A stretch of 64,000 nucleotides of DNA from Prevotella melaninogenica (lineage in GTDB: Bacteria; Bacteroidota; Bacteroidia; Bacteroidales; Bacteroidaceae), in NCBI RefSeq assembly GCF_018127925.1, contig NZ_CP072347.1, positions 1,304,501 through 1,368,500 of the forward strand. Reading direction: 5' to 3'. Each line of letters starts with the position of its first letter. The stretch's first letter is position 1. Of this stretch, positions 18,517-19,296 are shown piece after piece. Below the pieces are notes generated by a model. That model saw only the letters and a program-made list of their open reading frames with translations. It was not told the DNA's origin and did not search any database. Both the position numbers and the translations under genes were made by a program.

Positions 18517-18547
18517 TTGTCAGTTCTAAAAAGAAGTCTTACCTTTG
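18517..18547 (+). promoter_or_regulatory. Promoter of cassette A leader
   Basis: TTG (18517-18519), 20 bp, TACCTTTG (18540-18547). Transcription would begin near 18554, about 110 nt before the AC repeat. Confidence 0.75.
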
Positions 18548-18567
18548 CGCCCGTGAACAAATTAGTA

Positions 18568-18714
18568 ATGACATATCAGACCAATTCAGCACAGCAAAGA
18601 AATATTAGTTTCTTTGCCTTTTTTAGTGCTTTATATTTGGTAGTCTCAGATATTTTGCTAACACACACACACACACACACACACACACACACACACACAC
18701 ACAGGCGCTACTAG
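18568..18714 (+). CDS. Leader ORF carrying the (AC)21 repeat, cassette A
   Basis: The ATG at 18568 lies just behind a good promoter. It opens a 48-codon frame with a hydrophobic stretch (ISFFAFFSALYLVVSDILL) followed by His-Thr repeats from (AC)21, ending RRY-stop. The stop is 62 nt before the leader terminator. With one AC unit fewer or two more, the same frame would pass the terminator and stay open to 19061, giving about 163 aa. The third frame stops at 18721. Cassette B has the same arrangement. Whether it is translated is not shown; a regulatory role is inferred. Confidence 0.45.
   Translation: MTYQTNSAQQRNISFFAFFSALYLVVSDILLTHTHTHTHTHTHTHRRY
18636..18660 (+). promoter_or_regulatory. 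Second promoter-like site abutting the AC repeat
   Basis: TTTG (18636-18639), 19 bp, then TA at 18659-18660, directly followed by the AC repeat in the place of the last six bases of TAnnTTTG. The -33 context TTTGGTAGTYTCAG is shared with the ileS promoter. Cassette B is built the same way. Confidence 0.5.
18661..18702. repeat. (AC)21 dinucleotide repeat
   Basis: An uninterrupted run of 21 AC units. Such tracts are prone to slipped-strand changes. It lies inside a leader ORF and at a promoter -7 position, upstream of a surface lipoprotein gene. Confidence 0.95.
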
Positions 18715-19086
18715 CGTTTAATCACACTTTTTTTCTTCCATCCTACGCGCGCGCGAAGCGTGTCGTAACGCTTGTAAACAAAGGACTTCACGGAGTTTCC
18801 TTTGTTCGCTTTTTTGTGTCCATTTGCGAGCTATTAAGAAAGCAAAATAAGAACGTTTTAAGCACTGATTTTATCACAAAAGATAATTGTAATTCTCTGA
18901 TAATAGTTTGTTTTCTCTCGTTGATTTCTCGGGCAGGCAGCAGTAACATGCTGTCTGTCTGTAGAGGGGGAGAGGGCAGGCTGTTAAGAGGAATAGATAA
19001 TGAGCTTATCAGGATGTATATAATAAAAGGTGAGCAACAAAGCCACATAGAGAGTAAATAACAACTATTTTAATCAAATCAAAAAG
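18704..19086 (+). other. Conserved leader of cassette A, homologous to cassette B
   Basis: From about 18775 to 19086 the sequence aligns almost without gaps with 53484-53800. Blocks such as TTTGTGTCCATTTGCGAGCT, TTTTGTTTTCTCTCGTTGAT and ATCAGGATGTATATAATAAA are identical. One frame is open from the AC repeat to 19061, but differences between the two copies show no excess of synonymous change, so conservation looks like that of RNA or DNA rather than protein. Confidence 0.75.
18777..18815 (+). terminator. Intrinsic terminator (attenuator candidate) in cassette A leader
   Basis: AACAAAGGA (18777-18785) pairs with TCCTTTGTT (18798-18806), followed by CGC and six T. It lies between the leader promoter and the structural genes. 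The same hairpin is conserved in cassette B. Confidence 0.8.
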
Positions 19087-19296
19087 ATGATGAAAACAAA
19101 AGAAAGAAAAGTCTATCTCGTGCCACAGTGCCAGATAGCAAAGATGAGTGAAGAAACTAGTCTTATGGCTACCTCTTTCCCCAGCCAGCACAATCCTGGA
19201 CATCACGGCACCGGTCCATCAAGTGCTAAAGCTGTAGCTGAATGGGAGGATTTAGAAGAGAGCAGCAAGGGTACTTCTTCTGCATGGGAAGATTAA
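19087..19296 (+). CDS. Small conserved protein of cassette A (69 aa), function unknown
   Basis: I do not recognise a named family. The protein has no signal peptide. It shares a central block with its cassette B counterpart: Pro-x-Cys-x-Ile, SE-x-T-x-L-M, then TSFPSQH, TGP and AKA, and it ends with an acidic stretch and WED. The start is ATGATG at 19087, 25 nt behind the end of the long leader frame. The fimbrillin gene starts 54 nt after its stop, so the two are probably co-transcribed. The acidic tail and lone Cys are the only special residues. It could be a chaperone-like partner, a regulator or a peptide product; nothing in the sequence decides this. Confidence 0.7.
   Translation: MMKTKERKVYLVPQCQIAKMSEETSLMATSFPSQHNPGHHGTGPSSAKAVAEWEDLEESSKGTSSAWED

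Follow-up and report, generated by a model that had tools for sequence, protein, structure and literature searches.

Repeat-mediated phase variation classically involves slippage of short repeats inside surface-protein genes, resulting in stochastic ON/OFF switching. Surface loci of Bacteroidales are also subject to invertible-promoter and UpxY-type control. In attenuators of the trp type, the position of a ribosome within a leader ORF decides whether a terminator folds, and a pause hairpin may be present. Slippage and attenuation are combined in the closest described system, the pil1 and pil3 loci of Streptococcus gallolyticus (Danne et al. 2014, PMC3894217). GCAGA repeats in the pil1 leader ORF shift the reading frame, and higher transcription accompanies the longer leaders that reach the terminator; the effects of chloramphenicol, of a lost leader start and of stem-loop removal agreed with prediction, and a three-stop mutant was slightly above expectation (PMC3894217). 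Amino-acid attenuators of the trp type are discussed in the same article (PMC3894217).

A leader of related design occurs in the window, by which we mean the whole 64,000-nt stretch of Prevotella melaninogenica DNA that was analysed. The first-pass annotation of the window knew of no described system joining slippage to attenuation, a statement contradicted by the published pil1 and pil3 loci (PMC3894217). For Bacteroidales, no description of such a switch was found in the literature searched, which covered few subscription journals and bioRxiv preprints. Comparison of the window leader with its counterparts in this and other genomes indicates that it belongs to a real, conserved and very probably functional phase-variation system.

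Materials and Methods

Copies in the same genome (3.36 Mb, two contigs; 'own copies') were collected by matching the T2 hairpin sequence (Table 1) with up to 3 mismatches. The weaker relatives C1:775028, C2:15503 and C2:763025, detected by similarity search and without the T2 pattern, were left out of this set. Other genomes were screened by searching 84,980 species genomes for exact matches to a 23-base pattern spanning the point where the repeat begins; this pattern finds AC-type leaders only. A similarity search supplied 18 further loci, largely from the same assemblies as the exact-match loci. Repeat lengths were read from assemblies.

For the frame test, 97 of the 106 exact-match loci were used; the nine with <130 nt after the repeat were dropped, these being the sole loci of 3 of the 39 genomes, so that 36 genomes remained. 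Together with the 52 own copies, these 149 leaders were clustered by shared 6-mers of the 115 nt 3' of the repeat, the middle cut giving 44 clusters. One representative per cluster was scored against an expectation from dinucleotide shuffles, with the antisense strand as control. The 18 similarity-search loci were left out of this 44-cluster frame test, whereas the analyses of hairpins, P2, the CG motif and T1 drew on the larger set that includes them, either as one representative per cluster or as distinct sequences.

Results

The window leader (Table 1) follows a promoter assigned by motif, using what we take to be the Bacteroidota consensus. In all 52 own copies the TAnnTTTG element is set at a fixed distance from the repeat (120 or 121 nt in the AC class, 187–189 nt in the CT class). 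The first-pass annotation described a promoter, an ATG, a repeat, a stop and a terminator, and every one of these elements is present at 18517-19296; the start codon, however, requires revision. The codon 108 nt 5' of the repeat is a GTG in 39 of the 41 AC copies and an ATG in one, whereas the ATG formerly chosen, at 18568, is found in 28 of 41. By this comparison, the conserved leader start is GTG 18553. The promoter-to-start spacing presumably puts transcription start at about the same GTG, which would make the leader mRNA probably leaderless. As in pil1-type attenuation, a short repeat thus lies within a leader ORF behind a promoter of its own, the promoter being recognised by motif.

Beyond the repeat, two frames are closed and the third is open through T2, as the first-pass annotation had stated. 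Its arithmetic, by which the loss of one AC unit or the gain of two joins the leader to the open frame, holds when the frames are worked through by hand. The window copy is predicted to be OFF.

Table 1. Features of the leader and cassette in the window, and of a second cassette in the window
Feature	Position	Strand	Basis
Promoter, Bacteroidota type: TTG 18517-18519, 20 nt, TACCTTTG 18540-18547	18517..18547	+	motif only
Leader ORF, present reading: GTG start, 53 codons and stop, predicted OFF frame	18553..18714	+	start conservation, frame open into repeat
T1: hairpin 18594-18617 and U6, inside leader ORF 5' of repeat	18594..18624	+	folding, terminator scan, covariation
P2: small conserved hairpin immediately 5' of repeat	18633..18653	+	pair conservation
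(AC)21.5 repeat, frame-setting	18661-18703	+	sequence
Open (predicted ON) frame after repeat, crossing T2, ending 25 nt 5' of peptide gene	18704..19061	+
Stop codons of the two closed frames, ending 18714 and 18721; 62 and 55 nt 5' of T2 hairpin	18712..18721	+
CG-alternating motif TACGCGCGCGCG	18744..18755	+
T2: intrinsic-terminator-like hairpin 18777-18806 and T6 (U6) 18810-18815	18777..18815	+
69-aa peptide gene, counterparts in own copies	19087..19296	+
518-aa predicted lipoprotein, variable paralogous family	19351..20907	+
HU-HIG family DNA-binding protein gene, last in cassette	21202..21672	+	PF18291, 1.2e-20
Second cassette: leader ORF from ATG 53219, (CT)18.5 at 53375-53411, T2 at 53486-53515	53219..53515	+
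Second cassette: peptide 53801-54004, lipoprotein 54045-55631, HU-like gene 56061-56522	53801..56522	+

The T2 sequence has 52 matches in the genome and the reversed pattern none. All 52 copies carry a dinucleotide tract 70-75 nt 5' of T2, which is AC in 41 and CT in 11. Exactly one frame passes T2 in 51 of the 52 copies; the exception (C2:1591188) has no frame past T2. Since an AC tract in some copies stands where others have a CT tract, it seems to be irrelevant which amino acids are encoded. An amino-acid-sensing attenuator built on the Thr-His run of the AC copies was rejected on the same ground, as CT copies encode Leu-Ser within an identical design.

Several own copies depart from the common pattern. 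The leader of C2:1457913 is by eye a mosaic, belonging to one class before the repeat and to another after it, which suggests that exchange may occur between cassettes near the repeat. Two copies (C1:1176555 and C1:1062409) have a leader frame that is interrupted ahead of the repeat; by eye, a run of T or A has changed by one base, and runs of this kind might serve as a second switch.

A search for leaders of the repeat-ORF-terminator kind beyond this genome, suggested with the first-pass annotation, was productive. The exact-match scan retrieved 106 stretches from 39 other genomes, all Bacteroidales, the family placement of some being our assumption. The named genomes belong to Prevotella, Segatella maculosa, Hoylesella, Hallella, Alloprevotella and Phocaeicola oris, and the motif is also present in metagenome-assembled genomes labelled Prevotella, Prevotellaceae, Bacteroidales or Dysgonamonadaceae. 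By similarity search, 8 of 60 genomes of the genus matched, the own genome included, one of them (G031, with a 24-nt match) probably not through a leader. Among 20 genomes searched for the orthologous site in other strains, the best match outside the own genome was 76% identical and lay at the neighbouring gene. Searches of viral contigs and of plasmids gave no match, and a phage or plasmid origin was discarded on these counts.

Frame structure was examined across the 44 clusters of divergent leaders. At least one frame is open for 110 nt in 42 clusters as compared to 22.1 expected (P = 2.2e-12; antisense 22), and exactly one frame is open in 32 as compared to 17.9 (P = 8e-6; antisense 20). 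The full design, with one frame open and the other two closed within 40 nt, is present in 19 clusters against 5.2 expected (P = 1.6e-7; antisense 0). These P values are only guides, because the clusters are homologous and share ancestry. Other cuts, giving 46 and 29 clusters, produced the same picture. When frames were scored against the best local hairpin in 70 of the first 80 loci, one was open in 58, two in 8 and none in 4; with a 105-nt cut, two frames were open in 16 and none in 3 of the 97 loci from other genomes. The leaders have diverged so far that neutral openness would be gone, and the open frame therefore appears to be selected. The frame arrangement of pil1-type attenuation, with closed frames stopping early and the open frame passing the terminator, thus recurs in the clusters as well as in the own copies.

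The state of the leader is biased. Only 5 of the 52 own copies are in the ON frame as compared to one third expected under neutral slippage (P = 7e-5), and ON leaders account for 18 of 129 among all loci with a single open frame (P = 5e-7) and for 13 of 78 in the other genomes alone at the 105-nt cut (P = 8e-4). The ON state is, by these counts, probably disfavoured or rare; being rarer than one third, it points to a frame that probably matters to the cell. The lengths of the 41 AC tracts modulo 6 fall into class 3 (19 tracts), class 1 (17) and class 5 (3), with 2 tracts in the even classes. Two contigs of Segatella maculosa differ by a single AC unit in an otherwise identical 1,668 nt, the first being predicted OFF and the second ON; this difference may be read as a sign of slippage, the second stretch being the extreme end of its contig, which may be a duplicate or carry a misassembled repeat.

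These distributions bear on the proposal that the repeat works by its length rather than by frame, through spacing or the structure of the RNA or DNA, or is hypermutable but without function. Such a repeat would fit the shared position of AC and CT tracts and the presence of P2 and the CG motif on its flanks. It would account neither for the frame design seen in the clusters nor for the depletion of one length class, and we consider it very improbable.

The open frame runs well beyond T2, extending for a median of 207 nt in the own copies with long leaders while the other two frames have about 9 stops each, and ends 25-135 nt 5' of the peptide start in 31 of 32 of these copies. The dN/dS ratio is 0.61 for the leader, 0.72 from repeat to T2 and 0.85 for the open stretch beyond T2, as compared to 0.31 for the peptide gene as control; the open stretch has no third-position excess. 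A cruder test of the AC copies gave a protein-altering share of 0.74 against 0.80 possible in the leader and 0.70 against 0.74 after the repeat. A ratio of 0.85 beyond T2 against 0.31 in the peptide gene argues that translation, rather than its product, is what is kept, and a protein-coding downstream frame was rejected on this ratio, the few extra silent changes and the occurrence of the CG motif in three phases. There may be weak selection on the leader and repeat-to-T2 peptides (dN/dS 0.61 and 0.72). That the leader protein is itself the phase-variable product would be consistent with its ratio below 1 and with residues near the repeat that recur across species. These residues fall in conserved hairpins, however, the ratio climbs towards and beyond T2, and the own AC copies hold few extra silent changes, and we consider a leader-protein product very improbable.

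The position at which the open frame ends raises another alternative, in which ribosomes leaving the frame restart at the peptide gene or make a fusion with its product, so that peptide translation, not transcription, would be switched. The short interval before the peptide start in nearly all long-leader copies would suit such coupling, as would some loci of other species in which the open frame seems by eye to be in frame into the peptide gene. Distance and frame nevertheless vary, and in-frame continuation into the peptide gene is limited to 2 of the 49 own copies with a recognised peptide. The intervening terminator-like hairpin would moreover be useless, and the lipoprotein has its own start. 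We therefore regard coupling as an improbable explanation of the whole design. Classical phase variation through a repeat within the gene was rejected, as the open frame stops at 19061 and the peptide begins at 19087. In one leader of Hallella seregens (L142), the open frame continues in frame into a long downstream protein.

Hairpins are present on both sides of the repeat. T2 of the window consists of a hairpin and a U6 tract, as the first-pass annotation had described, and its function in termination is a prediction; the stronger T1, 5' of the repeat, had been overlooked. T2 folds at -9.1 kcal/mol (z -2.1) and T1 at -10.9 kcal/mol (z -6.1), and a simple terminator scan of the window picks T1 and misses T2. 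The stability of the window T2 is moderate, with 8 of 200 shuffles folding equally well and 3 nt separating stem and U tract. The premature terminator of the pil1 type nevertheless has a predicted counterpart, missed by the simple scan, in a hairpin with U6 that is carried by the 52 own copies and enriched among the clusters: a T2-like hairpin with a U tract at -10 kcal/mol or below was found in 23 of 44 clusters of the larger set, and the stems differ among clusters. Shuffled sequences reach this level in 16% of cases, downstream controls in 4 of 41 and reverse complements in 10 of 44. No hairpin of -10 kcal/mol or below was found in the other 21 of 44, including 9 of the 12 with JAIS/JAIT metagenome representatives.

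The 21 clusters lacking a clear T2 by this hairpin criterion, and the reach of the open frame far past T2, would be expected if the switch acted by translational polarity, with naked RNA in closed frames being cut off by Rho or decaying and T2 being incidental. An incidental T2 is at odds with the enrichment of hairpins and U tracts through stems that vary between clusters and with the 52 own-genome T2 copies within 3 mismatches. Polarity as the sole mechanism is thus unlikely. A second promoter 3' of T2 was rejected, as TAnnTTTG occurs only 3 times in the 10,085 nt from T2 to the first downstream ORF of the 52 copies.

T1 is found 41-70 nt 5' of the repeat across leaders. Among 80 distinct leaders, covariation was evident in 123 cells changed on both sides as compared to 63.8 +/- 6.9 after shuffling (0 of 500 shuffles as high). 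In a register control, pairing was in register for 59 of these 80 leaders, as compared to 46 when shifted by 5 and 6-29 at other shifts. The T1 region folds at -7 kcal/mol or below in 24 of 44 clusters as compared to 6% of shuffles. We infer that T1 is a pause hairpin or a first terminator. The smaller P2 is weak when folded alone in the window (z -0.6); of its 9 pairs, the outermost is conserved in 35 of 70 distinct leaders and the other 8 in 58-70, and one pair flips between T-A and A-T. The TATATTTG element inside P2 was rejected as a promoter, being lost by eye in many leaders of other species.

A CGCGCG or GCGCGC sequence within 90 nt of the repeat is present in 33 of 44 clusters as compared to 9.4 expected. 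The motif occupies all three phases of the open frame. It appears to be conserved as DNA or RNA and not tied to one reading frame, and was also observed in several metagenome-assembled genomes. By eye, the arms of T1 and T2 can pair mutually in class A only, and another hairpin-like stretch (GGCAGGCAGC...GCTGTCTGTC) lies at 18932-18959, between T2 and the peptide gene. A known RNA family was rejected, the single match scoring 18.6 bits against a cut-off of 58.

The genes behind the leaders follow a common order. A gene for a peptide of 50-95 aa, recognised by a simple pattern, precedes the large ORF in 49 of 52 cassettes, with two more found by eye; the 69-aa peptide of the window matched no family in profile searches. 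The first large downstream ORF has at least 502 codons in all 52 cassettes and a lipobox-like motif in 50. Homologs of the window lipoprotein are encoded in 43 of 52 own cassettes, itself included, and Cys26 is invariant in the 25 proteins aligned. Its earlier label as a fimbrillin could not be upheld: the window protein had no match in Pfam or NCBIfam (Mfa_like_1 / fimbrillin), nor did any of the 25 aligned proteins. PF13149 was matched by 2 of 10 own cassette proteins. One leader (C2:1191963) stands before a BspA-type leucine-rich-repeat protein (PF13306), without a peptide gene.

An HU-HIG gene on the same strand, 1.9-2.8 kb after T2, is present in 51 of 52 cassettes. That at 21202-21672 of the window scores 74.3 bits for PF18291 (gathering threshold 26.2), and cassette-borne genes make up 51 of the 65 family matches of the genome, one having an internal stop. 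Of 46 loci in other genomes with sufficient flank, 18 have an HU-like ORF downstream, as compared to none on the opposite strand (0 of 46) and none upstream (0 of 44). Between lipoprotein and HU-HIG gene, at 21078-21157 of the window, a 22-bp direct repeat of 3.6 copies with an inverted core (ACGAAAGTACATTTCGT) was observed, which is a possible binding site. At 43-1703 and 2136-7330, the window also has a CRISPR-like array and adjoining Cas1-like and Cas9-like proteins, names that we presume from sequence features.

Discussion

The best reading of these leaders, and one we hold to be likely, is phase-variable translational antitermination gated by repeat length. RNA polymerase would start at or beside GTG 18553 with a ribosome following, and the leader ORF would enter the (AC)n tract in a fixed frame, as is seen in the sequence. 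In a closed frame, the ribosome would stop within about 20 nt of the repeat, 55-62 nt short of T2, so that T2 would fold and the transcript end. In the open frame, translation would cross T2 and nearly the whole untranslated region, T2 would stay unfolded and the peptide-lipoprotein operon would be transcribed, perhaps together with the HU-HIG gene. Slippage in the repeat would flip the state. T1 would most likely pause the polymerase for the ribosome to catch up, or else remove untranslated transcripts, whether the state is ON or OFF. Polarity and translational coupling could each play some part.

The first-pass annotation had proposed that repeat length switches the surface operon through a translated terminator. 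The frame design in diverged leaders and the depletion of the ON frame support such a switch well; terminator activity and coupling of ribosome to polymerase are what we infer. One extension of that model is needed, in that ribosomes in the ON state would cover nearly the whole leader region and not T2 alone.

A wider scenario, less likely than not, is offered tentatively. Bacteroidales would have independently built this switch and multiplied it to about 50 copies, each lipoprotein gene having a translation-gated terminator, T1 as a synchronising hairpin where its leaderless mRNA begins, and an HU-HIG protein of nucleoid type to itself; a population would sample combinations with about 10% ON, and the HU proteins would help to silence, exchange or order the cassettes.

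If the proposed mechanism is true, what we know from two streptococcal pilus loci operates as a genome-wide system of surface variation in one of the major groups of commensals of humans and animals, and repeat lengths in DNA or metagenomes would reveal which of dozens of surface proteins are ON or OFF. Transcription-translation coupling in Bacteroidota is, to our knowledge, poorly known. Reading the leaders as expression sites would, if true, imply that this coupling is tight, and the 52 leaders form a natural series for testing whether, and how tightly, ribosomes trail RNA polymerase.

Among known systems, trp-type attenuators share with these leaders a terminator whose folding is set by ribosome position in a leader ORF, and possibly a pause hairpin. 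The state proposed here would instead be set by repeat length, and charged tRNA has no part in it as far as can be judged from sequence; Thr-His (AC) and Leu-Ser (CT) runs interchange, and there are no biosynthesis genes directly downstream. Slippage, surface proteins and stochastic ON/OFF states are shared with classical in-gene repeat variation, from which the cassettes differ in that the repeat lies in a separate leader ORF, outside the regulated genes. Phase-variable surface genes in the same order are likewise subject to invertible-promoter and UpxY-type control, whereas the states proposed here differ in repeat length only.

The closest likeness is to pil1 and pil3, where a leader-ORF repeat is also upstream of a surface-structure operon and frame decides whether translation reaches a premature terminator; the low state is found in most cells there, as OFF is in most copies here (PMC3894217). 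In S. gallolyticus, the distance from the low-state stop to the terminator is 49 bp (39 bp in a figure legend) as compared to 55-62 nt here, the repeats are GCAGA pentamers at two loci as compared to AC or CT dinucleotides at 52 loci, and two of three frames are high as compared to one of three (PMC3894217). Unlike S. gallolyticus, the leaders described here have a start probably at the 5' end of the mRNA, T1 before the repeat, a CG motif, an open frame extending almost to the next gene, a linked HU-HIG gene and a motif shared with 39 further Bacteroidales genomes. What sets the present system apart from S. gallolyticus is its scale and spread, the use of dinucleotides as repeats, the additional hairpin and the linkage to an HU-HIG gene.
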